Assembly (NCBI RefSeq): GCF_001293685.1
Contig: NZ_BCAG01000006.1
Coordinates: forward strand, 372,001 to 436,000
Source: Desulfatitalea tepidiphila
GTDB lineage: Bacteria > Desulfobacterota > Desulfobacteria > Desulfobacterales > Desulfosarcinaceae
Direction: 5' to 3'
Length of the DNA stretch: 64,000 nt
Below, in pieces: positions 9,867 through 61,979 of this stretch (positions are counted from its first letter, which is position 1; the number at the start of each line of letters is the position of its first letter). The position numbers were made by a program, and so were the translations under genes. The notes under the pieces are model-generated. The model ran no database searches. It worked only from the letters and a program-made list of their open reading frames with translations, and was not told the origin of the DNA.

Positions 9867-9891
9867 GGTCGATCCTGTCTTGCCGCTCATC

Positions 9892-10947: not shown

Positions 10948-10993
10948 GTCTCTGTTCGATCTTCCGGCAGGGCCGACGCTCACACTATCGATT

Positions 10994-11027: not shown

Positions 11028-11135
11028 TGTCGACCATAGGTACCCCATTCCGCCTTGCCAGGCAACTTGAAATTCCGCCCCAAGGCGGACCTGCGCATCG
11101 GTGGTTCAACCCGCTCGTAACAGCAACGGAACGCT

Positions 11136-11690: not shown

Positions 11691-11699
11691 GATCGAATC

Positions 11700-12203
11700 A
11701 TGCACCACGAACGATACATGGAACAGGCCTTGACCCTTGCGCGGCAAGCGCTTGATAAAGATGAGTTTCCGGTGGGCTGCGTCATCGTGTCCGATGGCGA
11801 AATTGTCGCCCAAGGAGAACGGATCCACACCCGGCAGTCCCTTCCCAGCGAGCTGGACCATGCCGAGATCCTCGCCTTGCGGCAGTTGGAGCGAGTTGAT
11901 GCGACCCTGGATCGCCGTCGCATGGTGTTGTACGCCACCCTGGAACCATGCCTGATGTGTTTCGGGGCCATTCTGATCAGCGGCATCGGCACGCTGGTCT
12001 ACGCCTACGAGGATGCCATGGGGGGCGGTACCGCCTGCGACCGCTCCCGGCTGCCCTCGCTTTACAGCGGCAACGGACTGCACATCATATCCGGCATTTG
12101 CCGAAAGGAGAGCCTGTCCCTGTTTCAATCCTTTTATAGAAAACCCCATATCGACTATTGGAAGGACAGCGACCTGGCCAGATACACATTGACACAGACC
12201 TGA
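11700..12203 (+). CDS. nucleoside/tRNA adenosine deaminase family protein
   Basis: 167-residue CDA-fold deaminase with both zinc signatures: HAEILALR (His ligand and catalytic Glu) and LEPCLMCFGAI (two Cys ligands). Overall similarity is to TadA, which converts A34 to inosine in tRNA-Arg, and to guanine/nucleoside deaminases; eye inspection cannot separate them. The C-terminal part after CRKESLSLFQSF is longer than minimal TadA. A likely ribosome site lies within TAGGATCG upstream. Confidence 0.85.
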   Translation: MHHERYMEQALTLARQALDKDEFPVGCVIVSDGEIVAQGERIHTRQSLPSELDHAEILALRQLERVDATLDRRRMVLYATLEPCLMCFGAILISGIGTLVYAYEDAMGGGTACDRSRLPSLYSGNGLHIISGICRKESLSLFQSFYRKPHIDYWKDSDLARYTLTQT

Positions 12204-12251
12204 CGGGGGACCAAGGGATGCTCGTCCACGAATGTTCAACAGGTCAACGTC

Positions 12252-12558
12252 CAGCAATTCTAACTGAAAGTGATTCACCCTGAAGGAAATGCATTACAAA
12301 AGGTGTTTGATAAAAAAATTCGCATGACATCGGAGGTGGCAGGCGTGGGTGGGGCAGGTGGCCAGGGCCACGTGAGCCTGCGCTCTTAGAGCCAGTTAAA
12401 TGCAAACGGCGGACAAGCGGCCCAGACTGTTTGAGCGCAGCGAGTTTCTGGGTCGCCCGCCGTGCATTTTACTGGCTCTTGACCGCTTGGCGTGTGGCAT
12501 CGGCCACCCGTTTCACCCACGCCGGGTTTCAAGGAATGGGATTAGGTTAGAATCACTG
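12252..12558 (+). mobile_element. 307-bp MITE-like inverted-repeat element, copy A
   Basis: Both ends read inward as CAG(C/T)(A/G)ATTCTAAC, and the element is flanked by a perfect 9-bp direct repeat GTCAACGTC (12243-12251 and 12559-12567), the mark of a transposition event. The interior is largely self-complementary, with a strong central stem (GCGGCCCAGA at 12417-12426 pairing with 12447-12456) and further pairing outward. A copy of identical length lies inverted at 53160-53466 and a half copy at 62032-62135. It encodes no transposase, so it must be moved in trans. Confidence 0.8.
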
Positions 12559-12573
12559 GTCAACGTCTTTTTT

Positions 12574-12602
12574 TCTTGCATTTCCGCGGGTGTTTATATA
12601 AT
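12574..12602 (+). promoter_or_regulatory. candidate sigma-70 promoter of infC
   Basis: A perfect -10 hexamer TATAAT (12597-12602) with a weak -35 TCTTGC 17 bp upstream, 7 bp beyond the right target duplication of the mobile element. It would start transcription near 12609 and give a leader of about 110 nt before infC. Confidence 0.5.
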
Positions 12603-12719
12603 GAAATAAACTTTTAGAAGCGTAGCCCTTAAAAATTTTCGCTGATTTCAATGGGCTACATATCGGCAATGGTCGGTAGGGGCCGAAACGACCCAACCCG
12701 TAGTCTAGGAGGTGTTGGC
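12603..12719 (+). promoter_or_regulatory. structured 5' leader of infC
   Basis: Holds an inverted repeat GTAGCCC (12622-12628) / GGGCTAC (12653-12659), a shorter GGTCG/CGACC pair, and a strong Shine-Dalgarno AGGAGG at 12707-12712, seven bases before an in-frame ATA. The ATG at 12651 lies in the hairpin arm and that at 12669 has no Shine-Dalgarno. Confidence 0.5.
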
Positions 12720-13256
12720 ATAGCTCAATATAAATCTGCAAAGGATGATTCGTCGCAACGAACACGATTGAATCAGGGTATTCGTGCAAGGGAAGTTCGC
12801 GTTATCGATCCGGACGGTAACCAACTCGGCATCTTAGCGATCCGTGAGGCCCTTGCGGCTGCTTCGGAATTTGGACTCGATCTTGTCGAGGTGTCTCCCA
12901 CCGCCAATCCACCGGTTTGCAAAATCATGGACTATGGGCGGTACAAATACGAGCAGACCAAAAAACAGCAAGAGGCCAAGAAAAAGCAGACGACCTTTCA
13001 GGTCAAAGAGATCAAGGTGCGACCGAAAACCGGCGACCATGATCTGCAGACCAAACTCGGGCATATCCGCAAGTTCCTTGAGCGTAAGGATAAAGTCAAG
13101 GTGACGGTGATGTTCAGAGGGCGGGAGATCGCCCTTTCCAACCGAGGCAGGGAGCTGCTCGAACAGATCGCCCAGGAAATGGAGGGGCTTGCCATCGTCG
13201 AGCAACTCCCGAAGTTCGAAGGGCGAACCATGATGATGGTGCTGGCGCCGAAATAG
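12720..13256 (+). CDS. infC: translation initiation factor IF-3, probable ATA start
   Basis: 178 residues from the ATA codon. The start of the family domain is clear (TRLNQGIRAREVRVIDPDG), as are the linker rich in Lys/Gln and the C-terminal 30S-binding domain ending in MMMVLAPK. IF-3 binds the 30S subunit and rejects non-canonical start codons. The only strong Shine-Dalgarno (AGGAGG, 7-nt spacing) precedes an ATA. E. coli infC starts with AUU and Myxococcus infC with AUC for autoregulation, so ATA fits the family. In-frame ATGs at 12651 and 12669 are alternatives. It is the first gene before rpmI-rplT-pheST. Confidence 0.9.
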   Translation: MAQYKSAKDDSSQRTRLNQGIRAREVRVIDPDGNQLGILAIREALAAASEFGLDLVEVSPTANPPVCKIMDYGRYKYEQTKKQQEAKKKQTTFQVKEIKVRPKTGDHDLQTKLGHIRKFLERKDKVKVTVMFRGREIALSNRGRELLEQIAQEMEGLAIVEQLPKFEGRTMMMVLAPK

Positions 13257-13331
13257 GATCGGCGATAGAATCACCAGCCGAATGCGAGGTCCCTGAGTCG
13301 GATCCGGTTTGATAATGTCGTTGGCGTGGAT

Positions 13332-13371
13332 TTGGCGCCTCAAATGCGGCGCTCGCGCCAACTGTTTTTTT
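13332..13371 (+). terminator. intrinsic terminator/attenuator between infC and rpmI
   Basis: Stem TTGGCGC/GCGCCAA (13332-13338 with 13355-13361) followed by a run of seven T. It lies 76 bp after infC and 65 bp before rpmI. In a conserved infC-rpmI-rplT operon such a terminator is expected to be partial or regulated; L20-dependent attenuation is known in Bacillus, though upstream of infC there. Confidence 0.65.
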
Positions 13372-13435
13372 AGATCTTGCACATACAAAGCAGAAATGCC
13401 ACCAGACACGGCAACACTATCAGGAGAAACGGACG

Positions 13436-13633
13436 ATGCCCAAAATCAAAACCAATCGCGCGGCTGCCAAGCGGTTTCGTAAAACCGGGAGCGGGAAATA
13501 CGCGTTTTCCAAATCCCATGCCAGCCATATTTTGACCAAGAAGAGCCCCAAACGCAAACGGGGACTGCGGCAGCCACAATTGATCAAGGCCAGCGACATG
13601 AAAGAAGTGCGCCGGTTGCTGCCCAACGGATAA
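13436..13633 (+). CDS. rpmI: 50S ribosomal protein L35
   Basis: 65-residue basic protein with the usual start [14 protein letters not shown] and [11 protein letters not shown], full length for L35. Shine-Dalgarno AGGAGAAA about 8 bp upstream. It sits in the conserved infC-rpmI-rplT order, 11 bp before rplT, and is probably controlled with it. Confidence 0.97.
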
Positions 13634-13644
13634 GGAGAAAGATC

Positions 13645-13992
13645 ATGCGTATCAAAAGAGGATTCAAGGCCCGCCGACGGCGTCAAAAGGTGTTGAAGCT
13701 GGCCAAGGGTTTCCGCGGCGGCCGCAGCAAATTGTTCCGTACGGCCGCCGATTCGGTCGACAAGGCACTCAACTACGCCTACCGGGATCGACGCCAGCGC
13801 AAGCGGGATTTCAGGCGCCTGTGGATCGCCCGCATCAATGCGGCGGTGCGAATGAACGACCTGTCTTACAGCAAATTTATCAGCGGATTGAAAAAGGCCA
13901 ATGTCGCTTTGGACCGCAAGGTGCTGGCTGAGCTTGCCTTGTCCGACCCCACCGGTTTTTCCAGAATCGCTGCATTGGCTTCGCAACAGTAG
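13645..13992 (+). CDS. rplT: 50S ribosomal protein L20
   Basis: 115 residues, normal for L20: [17 protein letters not shown] at the N-terminus, [12 protein letters not shown], and [10 protein letters not shown] in the 23S-binding globular part. L20 assembles early onto 23S rRNA and in several bacteria also represses its own operon. Shine-Dalgarno AAGGAGAAAG upstream. Followed by two short hairpins and pheS. Confidence 0.97.
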
Positions 13993-14022
13993 CCGCTTTT
14001 CCCATCGGGAAAACTACCCATA

Positions 14023-14053
14023 CTGCGGCCGTCCTTTCGAGTGACGGCCGCAG
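14023..14053 (+). other. 11-bp stem hairpin between rplT and pheS
   Basis: CTGCGGCCGTC pairs perfectly with GACGGCCGCAG across 9 nt. A second small hairpin (TTTTCCC/GGGAAAA, 13997-14013) precedes it. No T-tract follows, so RNA processing or partial termination is more likely than a full stop. Confidence 0.5.
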
Positions 14054-14089
14054 GTCATATTGGCAACCATCGAACAAAAAGAGACTATC

Positions 14090-15094
14090 GTGGAGAGTAT
14101 CGATCAAATCCGCGCAGCGGCGCTGAAAGAGATTGACACAGCGACCACCGTCGACGCCGTACAGGACATCAATACCAGGTACCTGGGCCGCAAGGGGCTG
14201 ATGACCCAGGCCTTGCGCGCCGTCTCCCAGTTGCCCGCAGACGATCGACCGGCCGCCGGCCGCAAGGCCAACGAGGTCAAGCAGGCCATTGCCGCGGCCT
14301 GCCTGGCGGCCCTGGAACGCATCGAGAGGGACGGCGCGGACCAGTCGGCGGGAATCGACGTCTCGCTGCCCGGCCGAAAGACTGCCCCCGGATCACGTCA
14401 TCCCATCACCCTCATCACCACCCGCATCTGCGATATCTTCACCAGGATGGGATTCGAAGTGGTGGAAGGCCCGGAAGTGGAAAGCGACTACTACAACTTC
14501 GAGGCCTTGAACATTCCCAAAGACCATCCTGCCCGCGACATGCAGGATACGTTTTACGTGTCGGACGACATCGTCCTGCGCACCCACACCTCTCCCACTC
14601 AGCCGAGGGTCATGGAGAAACGGCAGCCGCCGGTGCGCATCATCGCCCCGGGAAAGGTCTACCGCTGCGATTCGGATATCACCCATACGCCCATGTTCCA
14701 TCAGGTCGAAGGGTTGCTCGTGGACGAAAACGTCTCTTTCGGCGATCTGAAAGGCACCCTGACGAGCTTCGTGCACCAGATGTTCGACACCCAGACCCGG
14801 GTGCGTTTCCGTCCCAGCTTTTTCCCCTTCACCGAACCCAGCGCCGAGGTCGACATCCTCTGTGTCATCTGCCGCGGCAAAGGCTGCCGGGTCTGCTCCC
14901 AGACCGGATGGCTTGAAATCCTCGGATCCGGCATGGTTCACCCGGCCGTTCTGGAAAATGTCGGCTACGATACGGCCCGGTACACCGGCTTCGCCTTCGG
15001 CATGGGGGTCGAACGCATCGCCATGCTCAAATACGGCATCGACGACATCCGCAGATATTATGAAAACGACATCCGCTTCCTCAGACAGTTCTAG
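14090..15094 (+). CDS. pheS: phenylalanyl-tRNA synthetase alpha subunit
   Basis: 334 residues from a GTG at 14090 (ESIDQIRAAALKEI); a TTG at 14060 in frame is the alternative. An N-terminal coiled coil is followed by the class II catalytic core: RHPITLITTRICDIF, motif 2 region (FHQVEGLLVDENVSF), FFPFTEPSAEVD, and motif 3 (GFAFGMGVERIAMLKYG). With PheT it forms an alpha2beta2 enzyme that charges tRNA-Phe. pheT follows 30 bp later. Confidence 0.96.
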   Translation: MESIDQIRAAALKEIDTATTVDAVQDINTRYLGRKGLMTQALRAVSQLPADDRPAAGRKANEVKQAIAAACLAALERIERDGADQSAGIDVSLPGRKTAPGSRHPITLITTRICDIFTRMGFEVVEGPEVESDYYNFEALNIPKDHPARDMQDTFYVSDDIVLRTHTSPTQPRVMEKRQPPVRIIAPGKVYRCDSDITHTPMFHQVEGLLVDENVSFGDLKGTLTSFVHQMFDTQTRVRFRPSFFPFTEPSAEVDILCVICRGKGCRVCSQTGWLEILGSGMVHPAVLENVGYDTARYTGFAFGMGVERIAMLKYGIDDIRRYYENDIRFLRQF

Positions 15095-15124
15095 CGCGGC
15101 AAATTTGAAGCGAGCAGGTAGATC

Positions 15125-17539
15125 ATGAAAATTAGTTTGAGCTGGTTGCAAGATTATGTTCCGGTAAAAATGGAGGTCGATCGTCTGGCCCACCTGCTGA
15201 CCATGGCGGGTTTGGAGGTCGAAGCGATCGAGGAGCGTTTCGCCTACCTGGACCAGGTGCTCGTCGCCAGGATCCGCGAGATCTCCCCCCATCCCAATGC
15301 CGACAAGCTGAAGCTCTGCACCGTGGACACCGGCCAGGGCACCTGCCGGGTCGTCTGCGGTGCGCCCAATGCAGCCGAGGGCATGCTGGCCCCGCTGGCC
15401 ACAGTCGGCTGCGAACTTCCCAACGGTACCGTGGTTCAAATCGGCACGATTCGGGGGCAAGCTTCGGAAGGCATGCTCTGCAGTGCGGCCGAACTCGCCC
15501 TGGGGGCGGACGACTCGGGCTTGATGGCGCTGGAGGGCGACCTGCCGCCCGGCACGCCGCTGAACCAGGCCCTGAAGCTGACCGACGCGGTTCTCGAGAT
15601 CGGCCTCACCCCCAACCGGCCCGATTGCCTGAGTGTGATCGGCATCGCCCGGGAAGTGGCCGCCCTGGACAGCGCCTCGATCCGGCGCCCGGAGATCCGG
15701 CTGCCCGAAACCCATGGCCGCATCGAACAGATGACCTCGGTGACCATCGAATCCCCGGATCACTGCCCGCGCTATGCGGCCCGGGTGGTGGAAAACATTA
15801 CGGTCGGCCCCTCTCCCTTCTGGCTGCAGGACCGCCTCCGATCCGTGGGTTTGCGGCCGATCAACAATATCGTGGACATCACCAACTTCGTGATGATGGA
15901 AACCGGTCAACCCCTGCACGCTTTCGACTTCGACAGATTGGCCGAAAATCGCATCGTGGTGCGCACCGCCGGTGCCGGCGAACACTTCACCACCTTGGAC
16001 GGCAAGGAGCGCATCCTGGAAGCGGACATGCTGATGATCTGCGACGGCCGGAAGCCGGTGGCCGTGGGCGGCGTGATGGGCGGCCTGAACTCGGAGATAG
16101 ATCCGGGAACCACCCGCGTGCTCATTGAAAGCGCCTACTTCAACCCCATCAGCATCCGCAAGACCGCCAAGCGCCTGGGCATCAACTCCGATGCCTCCCA
16201 TCGTTTCGAGCGGGGGGTGGATCCGAAAGGCACGCGCTATGCGCTGGATCGCGCCGCCCAACTGATGGTTGACATCGGCAACGGGCAACTGGTCGAAGGG
16301 TGCATCGATGTGACCTATGACCTGCCCCAGGCCCCGACATTGGAACTGAGCGTATCGGCGACCAACCGTCTGCTGGGCACGGCGGTCGAACGCGACGAGA
16401 TCGCACGCCTGCTCACGGAAATTGAATTTGAGACAGCCATCAAGGGCGACGACCTGCTGACAGTGGCGACCCCAAGCTTCCGGGTGGATGTCAGCCGTCA
16501 GGAAGACCTCATGGAAGAGGTGGCCCGGCGCATGGGATATGACAACATCCCGGTCACCTTTCCGACCCTGCCTGCGGCCATCCAGCCACCGCCCAAACTG
16601 CTGACCCAACGCCAGCGAATGCGCGACCTGCTGGCCGGTATGGGCTTCACGGAAACGATCAACTACAGTTTCGTGCACAACGATTCCTGCCGACGCTTGC
16701 GGTTGCCTGAAGCAGATCCGCGCTGCCGCCAGTTGGCCATCCTCAACCCGCTGAGCGAAGACCAAGCCGTCATGCGCACCAGCTTGATACCCGGCATGCT
16801 CGAAACCATGCGGCGCAACCTCTCTTACCAGTCCAGAAACCTGAAGCTGTACGAAACCGGCAAGATCTTCATCAGCGAAGGAAACGACCGCCAACCGGTT
16901 GAAAAGGACATGCTCGTCGCCTTGTGGAGCGGGGATCGCATCGATCAACAGTGGCACACCAGGCCTGTACCGTGCGATTTTTACGATATCAAAGGGGCCG
17001 TGGAGGGGGTACTCGAAGGGTTGCGCGTCGCGCCGGTTCGGTTTACGCGGCTCGAGCCCGAGCAGTGCACCTACTTGCGTTACGGGGTTGCCGCTAAAAT
17101 CATGGTGGCCGGAAATGAGGTGGGCCTCGTCGGCCAGGTCCATCCCAAGGTGTGCGGCGTTTACGAGCTGAAGCAGGACGCGTTCATTTTCGAACTGGAC
17201 CTGGCCCGGCTTCTGCCCCATATTCCGGAAACGATCCAGTTTACGGCGCTGCCCAAGTATCCGCCGACCGCACGGGACACCACCTTGATCCTGGACGAGG
17301 CCATAGAAGCGGCGGAAATGCTCCGTCTGGTGGATCAGATGGACGAATCCCTGGTCGAAGAGGTCCGGCTGTTCGACGTATTCCAGGGTGCCCCCATCAC
17401 CGAGGGCCGCAAAAGCGTCTCGCTGCGCATCGTCTACCGATCGGGGGAAAAAACCTTGGAAGACGAAGAGGTGAACCGCCTGCACAAACGCATTACCGAT
17501 CGGCTGGTAGACCACTTCAATGCAGGCCTGCCCACTTGA
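15125..17539 (+). CDS. pheT: phenylalanyl-tRNA synthetase beta subunit
   Basis: 804 residues, full length. Starts MKISLSWLQDYVPV; the EMAP/OB-type tRNA-binding domain is at about 40-150 (HPNADKLKLCTVDTG), the B3/B4 editing domain at about 200-400 (DITNFVMMETGQPLHAFD), B5 at about 400-475, and the C-terminal ferredoxin-like anticodon-binding domain at about 710-804 (LPKYPPTARDTTLI). The beta subunit holds the editing site against mischarged tyrosine. A minus-strand frame of 1135 residues over this gene is a shadow. Confidence 0.97.
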   Translation: MKISLSWLQDYVPVKMEVDRLAHLLTMAGLEVEAIEERFAYLDQVLVARIREISPHPNADKLKLCTVDTGQGTCRVVCGAPNAAEGMLAPLATVGCELPNGTVVQIGTIRGQASEGMLCSAAELALGADDSGLMALEGDLPPGTPLNQALKLTDAVLEIGLTPNRPDCLSVIGIAREVAALDSASIRRPEIRLPETHGRIEQMTSVTIESPDHCPRYAARVVENITVGPSPFWLQDRLRSVGLRPINNIVDITNFVMMETGQPLHAFDFDRLAENRIVVRTAGAGEHFTTLDGKERILEADMLMICDGRKPVAVGGVMGGLNSEIDPGTTRVLIESAYFNPISIRKTAKRLGINSDASHRFERGVDPKGTRYALDRAAQLMVDIGNGQLVEGCIDVTYDLPQAPTLELSVSATNRLLGTAVERDEIARLLTEIEFETAIKGDDLLTVATPSFRVDVSRQEDLMEEVARRMGYDNIPVTFPTLPAAIQPPPKLLTQRQRMRDLLAGMGFTETINYSFVHNDSCRRLRLPEADPRCRQLAILNPLSEDQAVMRTSLIPGMLETMRRNLSYQSRNLKLYETGKIFISEGNDRQPVEKDMLVALWSGDRIDQQWHTRPVPCDFYDIKGAVEGVLEGLRVAPVRFTRLEPEQCTYLRYGVAAKIMVAGNEVGLVGQVHPKVCGVYELKQDAFIFELDLARLLPHIPETIQFTALPKYPPTARDTTLILDEAIEAAEMLRLVDQMDESLVEEVRLFDVFQGAPITEGRKSVSLRIVYRSGEKTLEDEEVNRLHKRITDRLVDHFNAGLPT

Positions 17540-17644
17540 CCGAAGCGCCAGGCGCGCAGTGGACATGACCACCCGACGGGGATAAGCTTTAGGGGAACGC
17601 CGGTCACCATCGCCGGCACGCTCCAAAAGTAAAAAGGAGCGCTG

Positions 17645-17995
17645 ATGAATGCACCGACAGAAAACCCGCCCGACATTCCGGACAAGCTTTTTTTCCGCAT
17701 CGGCGAAGTGAGCCGCATTGCCCAGGTTCCACCGAGCGTGCTGCGATTCTGGGAAAATGAGTTTCCGCGCATCAAACCGCAGCGCACCGATGCCGGGCAA
17801 AGGCTCTACCGCCGCAGCGACGTCGAATTGATCCTATGGATCAAACACTTGCTTTACGAGCGCAAGTTTACGATAAAAGGCGCCCGCCAGCATCTCAAAA
17901 AAGGCCGCTCCGATGCCGCCGTGGCCCCCGATAAGGATACCGTCATCAAAGAGCTGTACGCTGAATTGAAAGCGATCAGGGACATGCTTGGATAG
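17645..17995 (+). CDS. MerR family transcriptional regulator-like protein
   Basis: 116 residues with an N-terminal winged helix of MerR type: FFRIGEVSRIAQVPPSVLRF then WENEFPRIKP, RTDAGQRLYRRSDVELI, and a helix leading to a short C-terminal tail. No effector-binding cysteines or large C-terminal domain are present. The ribosome site AAAAGGAG is good. A small MerR-like gene directly after pheT recurs in related bacteria; its target is unknown. Confidence 0.85.
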   Translation: MNAPTENPPDIPDKLFFRIGEVSRIAQVPPSVLRFWENEFPRIKPQRTDAGQRLYRRSDVELILWIKHLLYERKFTIKGARQHLKKGRSDAAVAPDKDTVIKELYAELKAIRDMLG

Positions 17996-18020
17996 AATGT
18001 TGACGAACCGATGAAACCGG

Positions 18021-18049
18021 TTGACATCATTGAAAGGCTGTCCTATATA
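18021..18049 (+). promoter_or_regulatory. sigma-70 promoter of tRNA-Gly
   Basis: TTGACA, a 17-bp spacer and TATATA, near consensus, ending 12 bp before the mature tRNA 5' end. Transcription would start at about 18056. Confidence 0.75.
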
Positions 18050-18061
18050 GGGCTTCTGCGA

Positions 18062-18137
18062 GCGGGCATAGCTCAGTTGGTAGAGTACAAGCTTCCCAAG
18101 CTTGGTGTCGCGAGTTCGAATCTCGTTGCCCGCTCCA
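18062..18137 (+). tRNA. tRNA-Gly (anticodon CCC), CCA encoded
   Basis: The acceptor stem GCGGGCA/TGCCCGC closes a normal cloverleaf: D-arm with AGCTCAGTTGGTAGAG, anticodon stem CAAGC/GCTTG around the loop TTCCCAA (anticodon CCC, reading GGG), and T-arm containing GTTCGAATC. The CCA end is encoded at 18135-18137. It is a single tRNA gene with its own promoter, not part of an array. Confidence 0.95.
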
Positions 18138-18278
18138 CCCAAAAGTCCGGTATTTCATCTGAACCGAACTTGGTAAAGTAGAGGCAAAGTAGGTGCGGCT
18201 TTGAACTTGTGATTCAGATGATCGGTTCCAAATAGCGGATACGCGCATCCTTCTTGAGAAGGATCTACTTTACAGGGG

Positions 18279-18307
18279 AACGGGCTTCAAGCCCGTTTTT
18301 GTTTTTT
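18279..18307 (+). terminator. intrinsic terminator before rimP
   Basis: AACGGGC/GCCCGTT stem with a TTCAA loop followed by a T-rich tract. It stops transcription from the tRNA, or acts as an attenuator in the rimP-nusA leader, since the rimP ribosome site begins only a few bases later. Confidence 0.75.
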
Positions 18308-18325
18308 CGCCAGGAGGGCAGGCAG

Positions 18326-18820
18326 ATGGTGGCCGGTAACGACGATAGTGCGCTTTCCGTGGTCGGAATCACGGGCAATCCGATCGTCGGTCGGGTCTGG
18401 CAGGTGGCCGAACCACTGTGCCAAAGCGAGGGCGTAGAGCTGGTGCACGTGGAGTACCAACGCGAACCGGGTGGCCGTACGCTGCGTGTCTACCTGGACA
18501 AGCCCGGTGGTATCACCCTCGACGATTGTGCCCGCATCAGTCGTCAGTTGGGGGATCTGCTGGACGTTGCCCTGGACGTGGAGGAGTCGTATCACATGGA
18601 GGTCTCCTCTCCGGGGATATCGCGCCCCTTGGGCCGGTTAAGCGACTTCGAACGGTATCGCGGACACCGGGTGAAAATTAGAATTGCAAGGGCTTTGAAC
18701 GGTCAAAAAAATTTCACCGGAACGTTGGAAGGTATTGATGGAACGATGGTTCGCCTCAAAATCAACGATCAGAACAGGGACATCGTTTTTGCAGATATCG
18801 TCAAGGCGCATCTTTTATAA
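18326..18820 (+). CDS. rimP: ribosome maturation factor RimP
   Basis: 164 residues from the ATG at 18326, chosen for the strong AGGAGGG seven bases upstream; the frame extends further upstream but across the terminator. Family landmarks: ELVHVEYQREPGGRTLRVYLDKPGG, ISRQLGDLLD, and the highly conserved YHMEVSSPGISRPL. The C-terminal SH3-like domain ends VKAHLL. RimP helps 30S subunit maturation. First gene of the nusA-infB operon, as in most bacteria. Confidence 0.95.
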   Translation: MVAGNDDSALSVVGITGNPIVGRVWQVAEPLCQSEGVELVHVEYQREPGGRTLRVYLDKPGGITLDDCARISRQLGDLLDVALDVEESYHMEVSSPGISRPLGRLSDFERYRGHRVKIRIARALNGQKNFTGTLEGIDGTMVRLKINDQNRDIVFADIVKAHLL

Positions 18821-18837
18821 CACAATGGAGAAAACGC

Positions 18838-20259
18838 ATGTTGATAGCAGACATTAAACGCGTTGTCGAACAAGTGAGCCGCGACAAAGGCATCGACCGC
18901 CAGATTCTCATCCAGGCGTTGGAGGAAGCCTTACGCTCCGCGGCCAGAAAAAAATATGGCGCTAAAATCGATATTGAAGCCAACTACAACGAAGAAACCG
19001 GTGAAATTGAAGTCTTTCAGTTCAAAGAGGTCGTGGAGAAGATCGATGAGCCGGACCTGCAACTGACCCTCGAAGAGGGGCGCCGCCTCGATCCCGATTG
19101 TGAAGTCGGCGACAGCCTGGGAACCAAAATGGATGCCAGCACATTCGGCCGCATCGCCGCCCAATCGGCCAAGCAGGTGATCATCCAAAAACTCAAGGAC
19201 GCCGAACGCGACGCCGTCTATTCCAGCTTCATCGATCGTAAGGGCGAAATCATCAACGGTATCGTTCAGCGATTCGATCGCGGCGACATCATCGTCAACC
19301 TGGGGGCCACCGAAGCGGTCGTGCCGGTGCGCGAACAAGTGCCTCGCGAAAGCTACCGCAGGGGTGACCGGATTCGGGCCCTGATTTTGGATGTACTGTA
19401 TGAAACCCGTGGGCCCCAGATCGTCTTGACCCGGACCCATCCGGAATTTCTGGTGATGCTGTTCAAGACCGAGGTGCCGGAAATCGCCGAGGGCATCGTC
19501 GACATTAAAGGGGCCGCGCGGGAGCCGGGCAGCCGTGCCAAAATCGCCGTGTCGTCGCAGGATTCGGATATCGATCCGGTCGGCGCCTGTGTGGGCATGA
19601 AGGGCAGCCGGGTTCAAAACGTCGTCCAGGAACTGCGGGGTGAAAAAATCGATATCATCCCATGGCACGTCGATGCGGCCAAGTTTGTCTGCAATGCCCT
19701 GGCACCGGCCGAAATCTCCAGGGTGATCATCGACGAGGAAAATCGCTCCATGGAAGTGATCGTACCCGACGAATTTCTTTCGGTGGCTATCGGCAAAAGA
19801 GGTCAAAACGTGCGCCTGGCCTCCAAATTGACCGGTTGGCATCTGGACGTCAACAGTGAAACCCAGTACAACCAAGCCATGCAGAGTGGTTACGATTCCC
19901 TCGTTCAGGTGGACGGTGTCGGGGTGAGCATGGCCGATGCGCTGTTTGAAAAAGGATATTACTCCGCAGAGGAGTTGGCTGCGGCCGATATCGACGATCT
20001 CGTGCAGATTCGCGGCATCGGTGAGGAAAAGGCCAGACAACTGATCGCCAATGCCCAGGAGGCCCTCAAAAAGGCCAAAAAGGTCAAGGCCCAGGCCGCC
20101 GACGCGCCCCAAACGCCCACGGCATCGGAATCGGGCAGCGAGGATGCGGAAACACAGGCAGATACCGAACCGTCGGCCGATGAGGCCGATCCACCTGATG
20201 CGGCACAGGAATCCGCACAGGGGGATACGGATGAAACTGACGTGCCGCCCCAAAATTAG
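18838..20259 (+). CDS. nusA: transcription termination/antitermination factor NusA
   Basis: 473 residues: N-terminal RNA-polymerase-binding domain (1-130), S1 domain (about 135-200, GIVQRFDRGDIIVNLG), two KH domains (about 230-345, with DPVGACVGMKGSRVQNV and SVAIGKRGQNVRLASKL), then one helix-hairpin-helix repeat (IDDLVQIRGIGEEKARQLI) and a long acidic, low-complexity tail of about 50 residues. The tail replaces the second acidic repeat of enterobacterial NusA. Follows rimP by 17 bp. Confidence 0.96.
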   Translation: MLIADIKRVVEQVSRDKGIDRQILIQALEEALRSAARKKYGAKIDIEANYNEETGEIEVFQFKEVVEKIDEPDLQLTLEEGRRLDPDCEVGDSLGTKMDASTFGRIAAQSAKQVIIQKLKDAERDAVYSSFIDRKGEIINGIVQRFDRGDIIVNLGATEAVVPVREQVPRESYRRGDRIRALILDVLYETRGPQIVLTRTHPEFLVMLFKTEVPEIAEGIVDIKGAAREPGSRAKIAVSSQDSDIDPVGACVGMKGSRVQNVVQELRGEKIDIIPWHVDAAKFVCNALAPAEISRVIIDEENRSMEVIVPDEFLSVAIGKRGQNVRLASKLTGWHLDVNSETQYNQAMQSGYDSLVQVDGVGVSMADALFEKGYYSAEELAAADIDDLVQIRGIGEEKARQLIANAQEALKKAKKVKAQAADAPQTPTASESGSEDAETQADTEPSADEADPPDAAQESAQGDTDETDVPPQN

Positions 20260-51304: not shown

Positions 51305-53122
51305 TCAGATGGACATCTTACGGAAGAGGGCTCGCCGCGAAATACCCAACAATGCGGCGGCCTGGGTGCGATTGCCCCCGGATTGCTGTAGCGCCTGGTT
51401 GACGAGAAATTTTTCCAATTTTTGAACCGATTTCCGCAGGTCGAGGCCGATGGGCACAGGATCCATTTGGAGTTGGGGTCCAGGAGCCAAAAATTCTAAA
51501 TGCCCCAGGGTGACATATCGCTGCAACACGTTGCGAAGTTCGCGCACATTGCCGGGCCAATCGTATTCCACCAGGAGATCCATAATGCGGCCGGGCACGC
51601 ACGAGGGGTCGGGCAACGGTTTCATCTCATGCAAAAAGTGCTCGACCAGCAGCGGAATGTCCTCTTTGCGCTGGCGCAAAGGGGGCAACTCGATCTGCAC
51701 CACCTGGATGCGGTAAAAAAAATCCTTGCGCATCAATCCAGCCTGCACCCTGTCGCCGAGAGCAGCGTTGGATGCAGATATGATACGAAAATCGCTGTTC
51801 TTTATCTCCGTACCGCCAATGGGCCTGTACCCGCTGCCTTCGATGGCCCGCAACAGCTTGGCTTGCATGTTAACCGTCAGCTCGCTGACCTCGTCCAGAA
51901 ACAAGGTGCCGCCGTCGGCCAAATCCAGGTACCCCGGCGCGTCGGCATGCGCGCCCGTGAAGGCCCCCTTGCAGTGGCCAAAAAATTCGCGCTCGAACAA
52001 AGACTCCTGCATGGCCCCGCAATTGACCGCCACAAATCGCCCCCCACTCCTGGCGCAGTGCTCATGAACGGCCCGCGCCACCAGCTCCTTGCCGGATCCA
52101 GACTCGCCGAATATGGCCAAGCTTGCATCCGTGGCTGCTGCCTTGAGAATGAGTTCGTATACCGCCTGCATTGCCGGTGATCGCCCCAGAATACCGCCCA
52201 GACGATAGCGTTCTTTCAAAGAGGACCTCAGCACCCGGTTCTCATCGTCCAGGGCCTGGGCCTTGCGCTGGGCGGCCATTTGCTGCTCTTTCAGATCGGT
52301 GATGTCCTTGAATGTGGACAGCAGGGCCGGCCGGCCCCTGAAGCTGATCGGACTATGACACACTTGAATCCAGAGGGGCTTGTCGGCTCGCGACAAGGCA
52401 TGGACCTCCTCCTCCCTGGATTCGACGATACGGTCCGCCCTGTCACCGTAGAACCGGGCGATCTCATTGCCGTTACCCAGGGGCGGTTGATGCACCAACC
52501 CTTCGCGCATGGCTTCGGCCGAGGGAATCTGGAACAGCTTGCAGAATGCCGGATTGACATAGCAGAATCGACTGTTTTGAACCAAGGCCACACCTTCCGC
52601 GACCTGCTCGGTCAACACCCGGTACCGCTCCTCGCTCTCCTTGAGCGCCTCCTCCGACTCCTTGAGCCACAGCACCTTGCTCAAGCGCTCGGCGATCGCT
52701 TTCAACAGGCGTTCCTCTTCTTCGAGAAAGGGGCTATCCCCTCTGCCCGGCGGCTCTTGGAGATAATAGACATCCACATCACCGACATGTCGCCCATTGA
52801 GGATGATCCGCGTATTCTGACGCCAGGAGGTGACCTTGAAATTTCGGGTGATATAATGGCGACCGTTCAAAATGATACGTGCGCAGGCATTCTCCGGGTA
52901 TTGCCAGGCCGCCGGGATCAGTTCGACGGCTCGCTGCATGATCCAAGACAAAGAGACGTCCTGATTCTCGGAAAGATTGGAAATGCCGTACAGACAATTG
53001 AGCTCCTTGATACGCTCGGCCAGGGGGTTGGGGCGAGCCGCATCGCAAACGCATGGGTCGGCAGGTTGAGCCGGCTGCTCGGCGCGTTCCATCGGTACCT
53101 TGTCGGGTGAGGGTGTTGGCAT
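51305..53122 (-). CDS. PAS-containing sigma-54-dependent transcriptional activator
   Basis: 605 residues without a receiver domain. A GAF-like N-terminal region (about 30-160), a PAS domain (about 165-290), the AAA+ domain (about 305-540) with Walker A GESGSGKE, the sigma-54 contact loop GAFTGA and Walker B FLDEVSEL, then a Fis-type helix-turn-helix (GGNRTQAAALLGISRRALFR). It should open sigma-54 promoters in response to a small ligand. No target is recognised; its neighbours are divergent. Confidence 0.92.
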   Translation of the reverse strand: MPTPSPDKVPMERAEQPAQPADPCVCDAARPNPLAERIKELNCLYGISNLSENQDVSLSWIMQRAVELIPAAWQYPENACARIILNGRHYITRNFKVTSWRQNTRIILNGRHVGDVDVYYLQEPPGRGDSPFLEEEERLLKAIAERLSKVLWLKESEEALKESEERYRVLTEQVAEGVALVQNSRFCYVNPAFCKLFQIPSAEAMREGLVHQPPLGNGNEIARFYGDRADRIVESREEEVHALSRADKPLWIQVCHSPISFRGRPALLSTFKDITDLKEQQMAAQRKAQALDDENRVLRSSLKERYRLGGILGRSPAMQAVYELILKAAATDASLAIFGESGSGKELVARAVHEHCARSGGRFVAVNCGAMQESLFEREFFGHCKGAFTGAHADAPGYLDLADGGTLFLDEVSELTVNMQAKLLRAIEGSGYRPIGGTEIKNSDFRIISASNAALGDRVQAGLMRKDFFYRIQVVQIELPPLRQRKEDIPLLVEHFLHEMKPLPDPSCVPGRIMDLLVEYDWPGNVRELRNVLQRYVTLGHLEFLAPGPQLQMDPVPIGLDLRKSVQKLEKFLVNQALQQSGGNRTQAAALLGISRRALFRKMSI

Positions 53123-53896: not shown

Positions 53897-55818
<1,922 letters not shown>

Positions 55819-55845: not shown

Positions 55846-55883
55846 CATGATGGGCGGCCTGTGCGATCGGGTCGCCCATCATG
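55846..55883. other. 11-bp inverted repeat after gdhA
   Basis: CATGATGGGCG/CGCCCATCATG, a perfect stem with a 16-nt loop, about 30 bp after gdhA. No T-tract, so it could be a weak terminator or an mRNA stabiliser before the next gene. Confidence 0.5.
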
Positions 55884-55925: not shown

Positions 55926-58514
55926 ATGGCATACTACGCCCACGTCAGCACCGGTTGGAAGAGCCTGGACAGCATCATCGATCACCTGCGCCGCGGCGAT
56001 AACGTGGTGTGGCAGGTGGACGACATCGATGCCTACCGCAAACTGGTCTCCAATTTCGTCAACCATGCCATCGCCAACCAGGAGCGGGTGGTCTACATGC
56101 GTTTCGGGCGACATGGACCACTGCTCGAAGAGCGCCCCAACCTGCGCATCTACACGCTGAATGTGGCCGCCGGTTTCGAATCCTTCTCTTCGGAGGTGCA
56201 CAGTATCATCACCCGGGAGGGCAAAGACATCTTCTATGTCTTCGACTCGCTCTCCGACCTGCTGCACGAGTGGGCCACCGATCTGATGATCGTCAATTTC
56301 TTCTTCGTCACATGCCCCTATCTTTTCGAATTGAATACCATCGCCTATTTCGCGATATTGAGGAACTGCCATTCGTTCAAGGCCATCGCCCGTATCCGGG
56401 AGACAACCCAGATCCTCATCGATGTTTACAGCTACCAACGCAAACTGGTCGTCCATCCGATCAAGATCCAGGACCGCTACTCGCCCACCATGTTTTTCCC
56501 GCACATCAAGGAGCGCGACCAGCTCGTGCCGGTGATCAACAGCGTGGAAGCCACCCAGTTGTTCTCCCATCTGCTGCGCGAGAAAGCCGTGGATGCCCAG
56601 CGGATTCTGGATTACTGGGACCGCATCTTCATGCAGGCCGAAAGCCTGGTGGCATCCCAGGCCACCCCCGCCGAAAAAATGGACAAGGTCGAGCAACTCA
56701 GCCGCCTGGTGCTGAGCCGCAACAAACGGGTGCTGGAGCTGATCCGCCGCTACATGTCCCTGGAAGATTTGCTGCAGATCAAGGAGCGGTTGATCGGCAC
56801 GGGTTTTATCGGCGGAAAGGCTTTGGGCATGCTGCTGTCGCGCAATATCCTGATCCGCGACAACGGCTTGAACTGGCCACGCATTTTAGAGCACCACGAT
56901 TCGTTTTATATCGGATCGGATGTCTTCTACTCCTACATCGTTCAGAACGGCTGGTGGAAGCTGTTCATGGCCCACAAGACCCGGGAGGGATACTTTTCCA
57001 AGGCCGCCGAGTTGAAAGAGAATATCCTCAGGGGCACCTTTCCGGAAAGCATCCGTGAACGGTTTCAGCTCATGCTCGAATACTTCGGCCAGTCCCCGAT
57101 AATCGTGCGCTCCAGCAGCCTTCTGGAAGACGCGTTCGGCAGCGCCTTTGCCGGCAAGTACGACAGCTTCTTCTGCGTAAACCAGGCCTCTCCCGACGAA
57201 CGCTACGAGAAATTCGAAGAGGCCATCAAACAAATCTACGCCAGCACGATGAACGAGGATGCCCTGGCCTACCGTCTCCAACGCGGCCTCGATCAAATGG
57301 ACGAGCAGATGGCCATCCTCGTGCAGCGCGTTTCGGGCGCAAATCGCAAAAGCTACTTCTTTCCCGAAATGGCCGGCGTGGGTCTCTCCCACAATCCCTA
57401 TGTCTGGAAAAAGAACATGGACCCGGCGGCCGGCATGCTGCGCATCGTCATGGGGCTCGGCACCCGGGCGGTCAACCGGGTCGAGGACGACTATCCGCGC
57501 ATCGTGGCCATGGACGATCCGGTGGTCAAACCGCTGACCGGCATCTGGGACCTTAAGAAGTATTCCCAGCACTACGTGGATTACCTCAACCTGGAGGAAA
57601 ACGAGCTGCAGACCACCGCCCTGCGGCAGCTGCTGGCCAAAGAACTCGAGATCCATCTGGAATCCATCGCGGTCCGGGATACCGAAACCCACCATTATGC
57701 CGGTGAAGGGGTGCGGCCCGACCAGGACCAGTGGATTTTGACCTTTGACCATTTTTTCACCCACACCGACTTCATCCCGACCATGGCCGCCATGCTCAAG
57801 CGGCTGGAAAAGGCCTATACTACGCCCGTGGAGGTGGAATTCACCGTGAATTACGATGCAGCGGAGGAGATCCAGATCAACCTGCTGCAGTGCCGCCCCT
57901 TCCAGACCATCGGCAACCATGGCCATGTGGCCCTGCCGGAAAAAGTTCCCGCCGAAAGAATCTTTATTAGAACAGAGGGCAACTTCATGGGGGGCAACGT
58001 GTCCCTGCCCATCGCGGCCATCATTTGGGTCGACCCGGCCGCCTACGCGGCTTTGGGCATGTCGGAAAAATACAGCGTGGCCCGGTTGATCGGTAGACTC
58101 AACCGCCAGGTGGCCGACCGCCGCACCCGTACCACCATGCTCATGGGACCGGGCCGGTGGGGCACGAAAACGCCGGCCATGGGCGTTCCGGTGAATTTTT
58201 CGGAAATCAACCACATCGACGTCCTGGTGGAAATCAGCTATCGGGCCGGCAGCCTGATTCCCGACCTCTCCTTCGGCACCCATTTTTTTCATGATCTGAC
58301 CGAAGCCAACGTCTTTTATGCAGCCCTTTATCCGGAAAGGGCGGATGTCGTCTTCAATCCAGGATGGCTCGATGGCCGGCCGAATGCCCTGTCCCGGTTC
58401 GAATCCGGCCCTGAATGGATTGAAGAGGTCGTGAAGGTGTATTTGCTGGAAGAAAAAGAGCTGATCCTTCAGTCGGATGTTCAAACCCAGAAAATGATCT
58501 GCTATCGGATTTGA
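55926..58514 (+). CDS. degenerate KaiC/RecA-like domain fused to PEP-synthase-type ATP-grasp domain
   Basis: 862 residues from ATG 55926. Residues 1-200 follow a KaiC/RadA plan (STGWKSLDSIIDHLRRGDNV, Walker B-like IFYVFDSLSD at 102-111), but Walker A is lost (WQVDDIDAYRKL). Residues about 285-660 are the PEP/pyruvate-binding ATP-grasp domain of PEP synthase: IVRSSSLLEDAFGSAFAGKY, AGVGLSHNPY and LLQCRPF. The swivelling phospho-His domain and PEP-binding barrel of PpsA are absent. Residues 660-862 hold a C-terminal domain with MLMGPGRWGTKTPAMG, unrecognised. It follows gdhA. It cannot be a normal PEP synthase; perhaps a phosphotransferase or regulator. Confidence 0.85.
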   Translation: MAYYAHVSTGWKSLDSIIDHLRRGDNVVWQVDDIDAYRKLVSNFVNHAIANQERVVYMRFGRHGPLLEERPNLRIYTLNVAAGFESFSSEVHSIITREGKDIFYVFDSLSDLLHEWATDLMIVNFFFVTCPYLFELNTIAYFAILRNCHSFKAIARIRETTQILIDVYSYQRKLVVHPIKIQDRYSPTMFFPHIKERDQLVPVINSVEATQLFSHLLREKAVDAQRILDYWDRIFMQAESLVASQATPAEKMDKVEQLSRLVLSRNKRVLELIRRYMSLEDLLQIKERLIGTGFIGGKALGMLLSRNILIRDNGLNWPRILEHHDSFYIGSDVFYSYIVQNGWWKLFMAHKTREGYFSKAAELKENILRGTFPESIRERFQLMLEYFGQSPIIVRSSSLLEDAFGSAFAGKYDSFFCVNQASPDERYEKFEEAIKQIYASTMNEDALAYRLQRGLDQMDEQMAILVQRVSGANRKSYFFPEMAGVGLSHNPYVWKKNMDPAAGMLRIVMGLGTRAVNRVEDDYPRIVAMDDPVVKPLTGIWDLKKYSQHYVDYLNLEENELQTTALRQLLAKELEIHLESIAVRDTETHHYAGEGVRPDQDQWILTFDHFFTHTDFIPTMAAMLKRLEKAYTTPVEVEFTVNYDAAEEIQINLLQCRPFQTIGNHGHVALPEKVPAERIFIRTEGNFMGGNVSLPIAAIIWVDPAAYAALGMSEKYSVARLIGRLNRQVADRRTRTTMLMGPGRWGTKTPAMGVPVNFSEINHIDVLVEISYRAGSLIPDLSFGTHFFHDLTEANVFYAALYPERADVVFNPGWLDGRPNALSRFESGPEWIEEVVKVYLLEEKELILQSDVQTQKMICYRI

Positions 58515-58678: not shown

Positions 58679-60550
58679 TTGAGGTTCATCGAAACCATAC
58701 TCACGCTGAAAGCCAAACTGGTGTTCCTGTTTCTCACCCTGGCCATCGGCCCACTGATCGTCATCGGTGCCTTTTCCATCGACACCACCGAAGCGCTGAT
58801 CAAGCGGCTGGTGCTGCGCCAGCTGGAAAATGTCGCGGCCGATAAAGCCGCGATCCTGGAAAGATGGCTGGACGAACGCAAACAGGATCTGCAAGTCATC
58901 GCCGGCACATCGATCCTCAAAAGTATGGATCCGACGGCCATCGTCCCCTACCTGGCGCTCATTCAAGAACACTACGGGGTTTACAGGAACATAACGGTCG
59001 TTTCCGCCGACGACGAGATGATCGTCAGCACCGAGGGCCCCTATTCCGCAATTGATTTTATCCGCAACCATTCCGGCGGCCGGGATGGGCTCTTCATGTC
59101 CAACATCAGCTACCTGTCCGAAGAAAAGGAATCCATTTTTTACATCGCCGCCCCGATTTTCCATCTGAATCGACGCCTCGGCATGGTCTACGGCACTGTC
59201 GGCACCCACAGCATCATCAACACCATTTTGCGTGTCTCTCTGGGCCAAACCGGCGAATGTTATCTCGTGGACAACGAAGGACGCTTTCTCGTCCACAAGG
59301 AGCCGCGTCGGATTTTGTCCGAAAACATCTCCCAATCGGCGAGCTTCAAAAACATCTTCGGAAACCGGGACCGCATTGACGACACCTATCTGGACTACCG
59401 CAACATCGAGGTGCTGGGCACCTCTCAGAAGGTGGGCGGCACAGACTGGTACATCGTCGTCGAGCAGGACCGCGAAGAGGCCTTCCAAAGTGTGGAAAAA
59501 CTGAAAAACCAAGTCTATTTGACCCTTTTGCTGGCCGCCAGCAGCGCATTGTTACTGACCTGGGTGATTTCCTTCCACGTGGTGCGTCCGATCCGGGCGC
59601 TCAGCCGTTCGGCCCAGACCCTGGCCAATGCGGATGAAGATATCGGCGACATACCCGACGCCCGAACCAACCGCCAGGACGAAATCGGCCTCCTGTGCCG
59701 GGCGTTCACCGACATGGCGCTCAAGATCCGGGAGCGGCAGGACAACCTGGAACATCAGTTCAACCTCAAGGAGGCCGAACTGAAAGAGACCGGCCACACC
59801 CTCAAACAGTTCCAGCTCATCGCCGAACGATCGGAAAAGTTTGCCGCGCTGGGACGTCTGGGCGCCGCCGTGGCCCATGAAATCCGTACGCCCCTCACCT
59901 CGCTCAAGCTCTTCTTGGAGTCGGTCGAAGCCGAAATCGAAATTTCGCCTGAATACGCCGAAGATTTTACGGTGGCCATGGGACAAATCGCACGCATTGA
60001 AGCGGCCATCAACCGTCTACTCGAATTTACCAAGCCCAAGGATATGTTCTTTACGCGACTCGACGTCGGGCGCTTGATCACCGACGTGGTATCGATCATC
60101 AAGCCGCTGGCCAACAAACAGGAGTGTACGATTAAGATTGATGTCGAGGAGGCGTTGCCCCCTATTGACGCGGACCAGAAGTTGCTCGAAGAGGCCCTGA
60201 TCAACCTGTTCATCAACGCCCTGGAGGCCATGCCCGATCACGGCCGCATTGCCGTATCGGCGGCACGGGACACCTTCGAAGCGGAAGGGGGCTTGCGTTC
60301 CTGTATCCGAATCGATATCTCGGATTCGGGCCAGGGGATTGCCGATCAACAGCTCGACCTGATTTTCGATCCGTTTTTCACCACCAAAGCGGCAGGAACC
60401 GGCCTGGGACTCCCTATGGTCCTCAATACCATCAAGCGTCATGGCGGTGAAATCCGGGTCTGCAACCAGGTCGGCGGTACCGTGTTTTCACTGTTTTTAC
60501 CCATCACCGCCCCAACACCGGAAGCCTATGGAAAAGATTCTGCTCATTGA
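58679..60550 (+). CDS. Cache-HAMP sensor histidine kinase
   Basis: 623 residues with TTG as start. Membrane helix (about 12-30), periplasmic double-Cache-like domain (about 35-270, with GQTGECYLVDNEGRFLVHKE), second helix (about 280-300), HAMP (about 300-355), coiled coil, HisKA with AVAHEIRTPLTSLKLFL and an ATPase domain with INLFINALEAMP, DSGQGIAD and GTGLGLPMV. It senses a small extracytoplasmic ligand. The next gene overlaps by 23 bp and encodes the partner regulator. Confidence 0.92.
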   Translation: MRFIETILTLKAKLVFLFLTLAIGPLIVIGAFSIDTTEALIKRLVLRQLENVAADKAAILERWLDERKQDLQVIAGTSILKSMDPTAIVPYLALIQEHYGVYRNITVVSADDEMIVSTEGPYSAIDFIRNHSGGRDGLFMSNISYLSEEKESIFYIAAPIFHLNRRLGMVYGTVGTHSIINTILRVSLGQTGECYLVDNEGRFLVHKEPRRILSENISQSASFKNIFGNRDRIDDTYLDYRNIEVLGTSQKVGGTDWYIVVEQDREEAFQSVEKLKNQVYLTLLLAASSALLLTWVISFHVVRPIRALSRSAQTLANADEDIGDIPDARTNRQDEIGLLCRAFTDMALKIRERQDNLEHQFNLKEAELKETGHTLKQFQLIAERSEKFAALGRLGAAVAHEIRTPLTSLKLFLESVEAEIEISPEYAEDFTVAMGQIARIEAAINRLLEFTKPKDMFFTRLDVGRLITDVVSIIKPLANKQECTIKIDVEEALPPIDADQKLLEEALINLFINALEAMPDHGRIAVSAARDTFEAEGGLRSCIRIDISDSGQGIADQQLDLIFDPFFTTKAAGTGLGLPMVLNTIKRHGGEIRVCNQVGGTVFSLFLPITAPTPEAYGKDSAH

Positions 60551-61979
60551 CGACGACGAAGGCCTGAATCACTTTTTAAGCCGCTTTTTCAAGCGCAAGG
60601 GGTATGATGTCACCAGTTGCCTGAACGGCCGCACGGCGCTGGAAACCATCGCCAGGGAACCCTTCGATCTGATTCTGCTGGACTACAAGATGCCCGGACA
60701 AAACGGCCTGGACATCTTGAAGGAGATTAAGAGCGCCCAGGTAAAAACGCCGGTCGTGATCATGACCGCCTATGGCAACACGGATACGGCCATCGAGGCC
60801 ATGAAGCGGGGGGCCTACGACTACTTGAACAAACCGTTCGAGCGAGACGAACTCAGCCGCATCGTAGCCGAGGCACTGGAACTCAACCGGCAGATGAAAG
60901 AGGTGGTCTGCCTGCCCGATCCGGCCACCGCCGATGCATCCAGTGCCCCAAAAGGCGCCTTGAGAATTGTGGGCCGCAGCAGGACCATGCAGGCGGTTTA
61001 CAAAATCATCGGCCAGATCGCAGAAAAGGATGTTTCCGTGCTGATCAGCGGGGAGAGCGGTACGGGCAAGGAACTGGTCGCCCGAGCGATTTACCATCAC
61101 AGCCGGCGAAAAGACAACCCCTTCATGGCCATCAATTGCGCGGCGATCCCCGAACATCTCTTTGAGAGCGAGCTCTTCGGCTATGAACCCGGCGCCTTCA
61201 CCGGGGCTCAACGCACCAAGATCGGCAAGATCGAACGATGTGACGGCGGCACCTGCTTCCTGGACGAAATCGGCGACATGTCCATGGCCCTGCAGGCCAA
61301 ACTGCTGCGCGTGCTGCAGGAAGGCGAATTCGAAAGGGTCGGCGGCAAGGAGACCCTCAAGGTGGATGCCCGCATCATTGCAGCCACCAACAAGGAACTG
61401 GCCCAGGAGGTCCAAAACGGCCGTTTCCGCGAAGATCTGTACTGGCGATTGAAGGTGATCACCATCCACCTGCCCCCTTTGCGAAAACGCATGGAGGATA
61501 TCGCGGAATTGGTGGATTGCTTTGTCCTTCGGTTCAGCCGGGAATATGCCAAACCCATCCGGCTCGTATCCGAAGAGGTCCTGGAGCTGTTCCGCGCCTA
61601 TCCGTGGCCGGGCAACGTGCGCGAACTGGAAAACTGCATCCGGCGGGCCGTGATTCTGTGCGCCGGCGACATTATCACCGAAGATCATATCGAATTGCAG
61701 GCATTTCCCCAAGCCCACTCGGCGCAAATCGCCGATCGCGACCAACTGATGGCGCGCCTGAAGGAGAAGCTGCAGGACGTGTTGCCGGATATCCTTCGCC
61801 TGTCGGAAGAAGGGGTCCATGCCAACGTCATCGATATGGTGGAAGAAACGATCATTTTGAAAGCCCTGGAAGCATGCGGCAACAACCAGGTCCGGGCGGC
61901 CCGAATGCTGGGCATCAGCCGCAACACGCTGCGTCACCGCCTCAAAAAATATCAGCGAAAAGACTCCCGCCAGGCCTAA
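60528..61979 (+). CDS. NtrC-family sigma-54 response regulator
   Basis: 483 residues from ATG 60528: receiver domain (1-120, acceptor Asp52 in LILLDYKMPGQNG), AAA+ domain (about 140-380; GESGTGKE, GAFTGAQRTK, FLDEIGD) and a Fis-type HTH (NQVRAARMLGISRNTLRHRL). Overlaps the kinase gene, forming a two-component pair that activates sigma-54 promoters. Target genes are unknown. Confidence 0.94.
   Translation: MEKILLIDDDEGLNHFLSRFFKRKGYDVTSCLNGRTALETIAREPFDLILLDYKMPGQNGLDILKEIKSAQVKTPVVIMTAYGNTDTAIEAMKRGAYDYLNKPFERDELSRIVAEALELNRQMKEVVCLPDPATADASSAPKGALRIVGRSRTMQAVYKIIGQIAEKDVSVLISGESGTGKELVARAIYHHSRRKDNPFMAINCAAIPEHLFESELFGYEPGAFTGAQRTKIGKIERCDGGTCFLDEIGDMSMALQAKLLRVLQEGEFERVGGKETLKVDARIIAATNKELAQEVQNGRFREDLYWRLKVITIHLPPLRKRMEDIAELVDCFVLRFSREYAKPIRLVSEEVLELFRAYPWPGNVRELENCIRRAVILCAGDIITEDHIELQAFPQAHSAQIADRDQLMARLKEKLQDVLPDILRLSEEGVHANVIDMVEETIILKALEACGNNQVRAARMLGISRNTLRHRLKKYQRKDSRQA

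Follow-up and report, generated by a model that had tools for sequence, protein, structure and literature searches.

What does a protein built from a KaiC-like domain and a PEP-synthase-type ATP-grasp domain do beside a glutamate dehydrogenase gene? This question is raised by one gene in the 64,000-nucleotide stretch of Desulfatitalea tepidiphila DNA analyzed here (the window). Glutamate dehydrogenase (GDH) links carbon and nitrogen metabolism and, to our knowledge, no protein controlling GDH has been described in sulfate reducers, Spirochaetota, Planctomycetota, or Bacteroidota. Two widespread unannotated families, one of them represented by this gene, are repeatedly found beside gdhA or other ammonia and glutamate genes, and constitute a concrete lead to a GDH controller.

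Domain architecture and relatives

The gene is complete, and its product can be divided as follows (positions in the window):

55926..58514, + strand: complete gene, KaiC-like / PEP-synthase-type ATP-grasp / C-terminal domain protein, 862 aa
55926..56537, + strand: KaiC/RecA-like domain without Walker A, residues 1-204 (KaiC fold and profile matches)
56538..56765, + strand: helical linker, residues 205-280, where conservation is lowest (on average 44% identity to the query)
56766..57926, + strand: PEP-synthase/PPDK-type ATP-grasp, residues 281-667 (PF01326, fold match, conservation)
56817, 57108, 57837, 57888, and 57894, + strand: ATP-grasp residues K298, R395, E638, Q655, and R657, invariant in 54 homologues
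57927..58511, + strand: unnamed C-terminal domain, residues 668-862, common to the receiver-type family described below
58281-58283, + strand: invariant H786 of the C-terminal domain, inside a stretch modeled with low local confidence

An in-frame ATG is also present upstream, at 55881, but the start at 55926 is preferred, since homologues align from its residue 1. The whole three-part architecture is kept, at 39-98% identity, in Desulfobacterota, Spirochaetota, Planctomycetota, Omnitrophota, and Firmicutes, and the existence of full-length relatives in five phyla excludes a chance open reading frame. PPDK_N is the sole Pfam match of the protein, and searches of Pfam and NCBIfam returned no curated family covering its full length, which agrees with the sequence-only reading, in which the architecture was not recognized as a described system. 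No papers on this architecture or its link with gdhA were found in the open-access literature, where absence is not proof. Judged from these relatives, the family is an uncharacterized but widely conserved bacterial protein. In two metagenome assemblies, its gene is broken into two frames (L111 7860-10581 and L117 2256-4801), by sequencing errors or as broken genes.

The structure was modeled with AlphaFold on a 54-sequence alignment (A1), giving a mean pLDDT of 86.6 and a pTM of 0.83; a single-sequence model (pLDDT 33) was discarded. The N-terminus had been described, from the letters alone, as a degenerate KaiC/RecA-like domain that lost Walker A, and both parts of this description stand. 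Residues 1-219 of the model match KaiC structures of the PDB with Z up to 21.7, at 2.6-3.2 Å over about 190-210 residues (best match: Z 21.7, 2.6 Å, 193 residues), and profile comparison of residues 4-116 with bona fide KaiC domains of related genomes gives E=8e-8. The Walker A motif GxxxxGK[S/T] is absent from all 54 N-domains of the alignment; GDNVVWQVD stands at the P-loop position, while a Walker-B-like YVFD is retained, with an Asp (D107) invariant in the 54 members. None of them matches the KaiC family PF06745, up to E=10. Weak matches to PF14417 (MEDS) occur in 4 of the 54 (best E=0.026), and assignment to MEDS is unsupported by profile comparison (E=0.034).

KaiC-like/XRE/cupin regulators of about 430 aa, found in the same genomes, have a homologous N-domain, which also lacks the P-loop and precedes HTH_3 and Cupin_2. 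With E=6e-32 by profile comparison, they are much closer to the present N-domain than bona fide KaiC (8e-8). These regulators are found across the relatives (L190-L199); the genome studied here has one of them (contig C3, L119 7437-8861), and two loci of Spirochaetota have one immediately upstream of their family member (L097 7989-9272 and L100 3942-5249). Inactivated KaiC-like (iKaiC) input domains, such as MEDS and DUF835, are known from archaeal signaling (PMC5847659). They have in common with the present domain the KaiC fold, the loss of the P-loop, and use as an input domain in fusions, whereas here the domain is bacterial and is fused to a dikinase-type ATP-grasp.

A second family, of about 990 aa, combines a receiver-type N-terminal region, which matches Pfam Response_reg (E=1e-8), with an ATP-grasp and the same C-terminal domain. 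It is uncharacterized as far as could be found, and shares 26-29% identity with the KaiC-type family over the common part. The two families have in common the ATP-grasp, the C-terminal domain, and a place beside gdhA, but differ in the N-terminal region. The KaiC-like N-domain occurs both in a transcription factor and in an ATP-grasp protein, and the paralogue has a receiver match; the most natural reading of this P-loop-less domain is therefore that it provides an input. Another relative, of 1127 aa (L019 973-4353, - strand), has the ATP-grasp and the C-terminal domain behind a different N-terminus, and ends in a nucleotidyltransferase-like C-terminal stretch with a weak NCBIfam match to the MntA antitoxin.

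The ATP-grasp was said to be the nucleotide-binding half of PEP synthase, which is confirmed by a PF01326 (PPDK_N) match over residues 295-667 (E=5e-52). In addition to the five residues listed above, G410 is invariant in the 54 members, and Q467 is a Gln in 46 of them. We take K298, R395, G410, E638, Q655, and R657 to be ATP-site positions of rifampin phosphotransferase (RPH) and PEP synthase; Q467 is presumably an ATP-site position in RPH. The closest solved fold is that of RPH (Z 25.6, 2.9 Å, 294 residues, model against PDB), followed by PEP synthase 2ols (Z 24.1), and comparison with a PEP synthase profile gives E=1.9e-8. With nearly all the ATP-site residues checked invariant and its profile match to PEP synthase, the domain looks catalytically competent, and it is likely to be active.

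The C-terminal domain (residues 668-862), previously called unrecognized, indeed has no Pfam match. Its motif reads GPGRWGT..P..GVPV..SEI...E...P..S.GTHFF..L.E, and R744 and E769 are invariant alongside H786. The C-terminal domains of the KaiC-type and receiver-type families are related with E=2e-30 (profile comparison), and the GPGR, the Glu, P, S, G, and the His of G[ST]HFF (H786) are invariant in both.

The absence of phospho-His and PEP-binding domains, also proposed earlier, holds, but for the phospho-His domain at the level of recognized motifs only, as it is drawn from PPDK_N being alone in the query and from PF00391 (the phospho-His swivel) matching none of the 54 members, up to E=10. 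The protein also lacks the canonical GG.T[SC]H / GGXT[SC]HAA phospho-His motif; the published swivel motif is GGXT[SC]HAA (PMC12167813). The PEP/pyruvate-binding barrel PF02896 was not found by Pfam in the query or the 54 members, and the 195 C-terminal residues leave no room for it. The further statement that an N-terminal and an unrecognized C-terminal domain replace the missing ones is right about the architecture, but "replaces" is too strong, because the C-terminal domain is common to the second gdhA-linked family and may itself be a swivel (phospho-His) domain that has diverged. A swivel would be compatible with the predicted order of its secondary-structure elements and with H786 standing where a helix begins, and VIA-align aligns the C-terminal part of the model up to residue 466 of 2ols and 866 of 5hv3. 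The end regions of these rows in 2ols, 5hv3, and 5hv2 are presumably their swivel domains. Nevertheless, profile comparison gives no link between the C-terminal domain and the swivel (E 0.49 and 0.15). The histidines are not paired in an anchored alignment, and the model block 781-790, around H786, has a pLDDT of 61.

Compared with PEP synthase/PPDK (COG0574; TIGR01418, PF01326+PF00391+PF02896), the family thus has a homologous ATP-grasp with the main ATP-site residues retained, no recognized swivel or PEP/pyruvate barrel, and an added KaiC-like N-domain. Full-length PEP synthase models score far below their cut-offs (TIGR01418, 53 bits against 740; NF004881, 65 against 883). As judged by recognized domains, the protein is a member neither of PEP synthase/PPDK, for want of a swivel or barrel, nor of the KaiC ATPases, whose fold it has without the Walker A P-loop. 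We infer that the family works at least partly like a dikinase ATP-grasp. HpeI is a PEP-synthase-type ATP-grasp without a swivel domain of its own, which works with a separate His-bearing subunit (PMC12167813), and by analogy it offers a precedent. By sequence, neither the N-domain nor the C-terminal domain is found in RPH or HpeI, and the linked genes concern glutamate here, as opposed to antibiotics or phenols for RPH and HpeHI. Unlike in the two-component dikinase HpeHI, no PF00391 partner is encoded on C6, the contig that holds the window; the PF00391 matches of this genome are all on other contigs.

Association with glutamate and ammonia genes

The neighbors of the gene within the window are the following:

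53897..54472, + strand: conserved protein without known family, about 192 aa, upstream of gdhA (start inferred)
54463..55818, + strand: gdhA, glutamate dehydrogenase, PF00208/PF02812 (start codon inferred)
58703..60550, + strand: dCache-HAMP histidine kinase, a conserved neighbor in Desulfobacterota
60528..61979, + strand: sigma-54 response regulator (REC-AAA-HTH_8), a conserved neighbor in Desulfobacterota

The position after gdhA and before a two-component system is therefore as first described, gdhA ending at 55818, 107 bases upstream of the KaiC/ATP-grasp gene. A GC-rich hairpin without a T run (55849-55880, GATGGGCG...CGCCCATC) is found between the two genes; in a promoter/terminator scan, promoter matches were no more numerous than expected by chance. 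The 192-aa protein, which has no Pfam or NCBIfam match, is part of the Desulfobacterota cluster and is kept in 19 loci; a hint of similarity to KaiB was dropped (E=0.22).

KaiC-type relatives were taken from 80 loci of Desulfobacterota, Spirochaetota, Planctomycetota, Omnitrophota, and Firmicutes. The commonest neighbor is gdhA, present within 8 kb in 44 of them (38 under stricter clustering), in same-strand upstream, same-strand downstream, convergent, and divergent arrangements. These conserved neighborhoods strongly support the earlier guess of a link with nitrogen status. About 45% of the loci have no gdhA in the flank examined, some of the contigs being short. In an even sample of the order (146 genomes), a KaiC-type gene occurs in 21 genomes, 13 of which have gdhA within 5 kb, and in one of these 13 (G103) it is flanked by two gdhA genes.

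Receiver-type genes behave similarly in part. The paralogue of the same genome (L120 6313-9285, - strand) lies 21 bases from a second gdhA (L120 4946-6295, - strand), and such pairs are common in the order: 37 of the 128 receiver-type genes listed in the order sample (in 36 genomes) have gdhA at most 1 kb downstream on the same strand, although most are not beside gdhA. As a genome has one gdhA or two, we estimate that chance adjacency would be well under 1%. A divergent arrangement with gdhA is seen in Parabacteroides distasonis for the receiver-type gene (WP_041525632.1), whose annotation goes no further than "PEP/pyruvate-binding domain-containing protein". Contig C97 of G103 carries a receiver-type gene, a KaiC-type gene, and two gdhA within about 12 kb (7006-19181).

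The association extends to the type of gdhA. A close subtype, defined by at least 76% identity to the gdhA of the window, is found in 14 of the 146 genomes, and 13 of these also have a KaiC-type gene (Fisher p=2e-12, relatedness ignored); in two of the 13, the two genes are far apart. In a GDH tree, KaiC-linked GDHs fall in several lineages, and well supported branches force at least four label changes; the association therefore arose or persisted with more than one gdhA. Divergence of the KaiC/ATP-grasp protein correlates with that of GDH (r=0.75 over all pairs among 30 loci), a correlation that could result from common descent alone.

Some loci without gdhA carry other ammonia or glutamate genes instead:

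L071: gltB and gltD with nadE
L074: carA-carB before, gltB-gltD after
L111: glutamine synthetase III (glnN) before, ammonium transporter (amtB) after
L066: archaeal-type glutamate synthase parts
L089: glutamine-dependent NAD synthase and gltD
L072: carB

In genomes whose locus has no linked gdhA, GDH is encoded elsewhere in all 20 tested, and glutamate synthase in 18 of the 20. Linkage in genomes does not by itself show a physical or regulatory link. The gene might simply travel with gdhA through old shared operons and have an unrelated housekeeping role, a reading that fits the incompleteness of the linkage and the many linked loci that come from related genomes. It is nevertheless very improbable in view of the two families, the several gdhA lineages and phyla, the occurrence of all orientations, and the substitution of gdhA by other ammonia and glutamate genes. 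The KaiC/ATP-grasp protein is, in our judgment, very probably tied to glutamate/ammonia metabolism.

Proposed function and its alternatives

Its consistent place beside genes for ammonia and glutamate assimilation makes it probable that the protein is an enzyme that controls glutamate metabolism. The preferred reading, to which we give about an even chance on the basis of domains and gene context, is a sensor-controlled dikinase-type phosphotransferase that regulates the glutamate/ammonia node. The KaiC-like N-domain would no longer hydrolyze ATP; as a sensor or a docking site for proteins, it would provide an input at the place that the receiver-like region occupies in the other family. Under the control of this domain, the ATP-grasp would take a phosphoryl or pyrophosphoryl group from ATP and place it on a residue of either the C-terminal domain or a partner. 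This transfer would adjust the activity of GDH, or of a different enzyme of the glutamate node, to the nitrogen or energy state. GDH itself is a plausible direct target, at somewhat less than an even chance. The most specific version, which would be a new mode of post-translational control in nitrogen metabolism, seems unlikely: GDH switched by (pyro)phosphorylation, possibly via H786 or a GDH histidine, by a PEP-synthase-derived enzyme with a dead-KaiC or receiver-like input, in several phyla. If the preferred reading is true, a PEP-synthase-type ATP-grasp has been recruited for signaling. This reading is directly testable, as homologues occur in cultivable organisms, namely Parabacteroides distasonis (receiver type) and Desulfatitalea alkaliphila (KaiC type).

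The ATP-grasp could instead act on a small molecule. In this case, it would phosphorylate a compound of the glutamate/glutamine/2-oxoglutarate node, as a pathway enzyme and not a regulator, the C-terminal domain serving as its swivel or substrate domain and the N-domain acting allosterically. The characterized relatives (PEP synthase, PPDK, rifampin phosphotransferase, and HpeHI) all act on small molecules, several metabolic enzymes are found among the neighbors, and the VIA-align rows reach the presumed swivel regions of 2ols and 5hv3. However, the ATP-grasp and C-terminal domain have one of three interchangeable inputs in front of them (a KaiC-like domain, a receiver-like region, or the unrelated N-terminus of L019), which is typical of regulation, the profile link with the swivel is missing, and a second substrate domain is not recognized. 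Such a metabolic role is, on balance, doubtful.

A non-catalytic role is rather improbable. The ATP-grasp would then bind ATP or AMP and report energy charge, the protein binding to GDH or another glutamate enzyme with no phosphotransfer. The missing canonical phospho-His motif, the N-domain being itself a degenerate ATPase, and the linkage with GDH are all consistent with this adenylate sensing. Nevertheless, nearly all the ATP-contact positions checked are invariant (the exception being Q467), which goes beyond the usual demand of mere binding, and the invariant H786, R744, and E769 look like an active or anion-binding site.

Regulation may also lie with the neighbors: the cluster could in fact be regulated by the conserved two-component system, the KaiC/ATP-grasp protein being a metabolic enzyme. 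The window further encodes a PAS-containing sigma-54 activator (51305-53122, - strand), which is divergent from the gdhA cluster and is also found in a few related loci.
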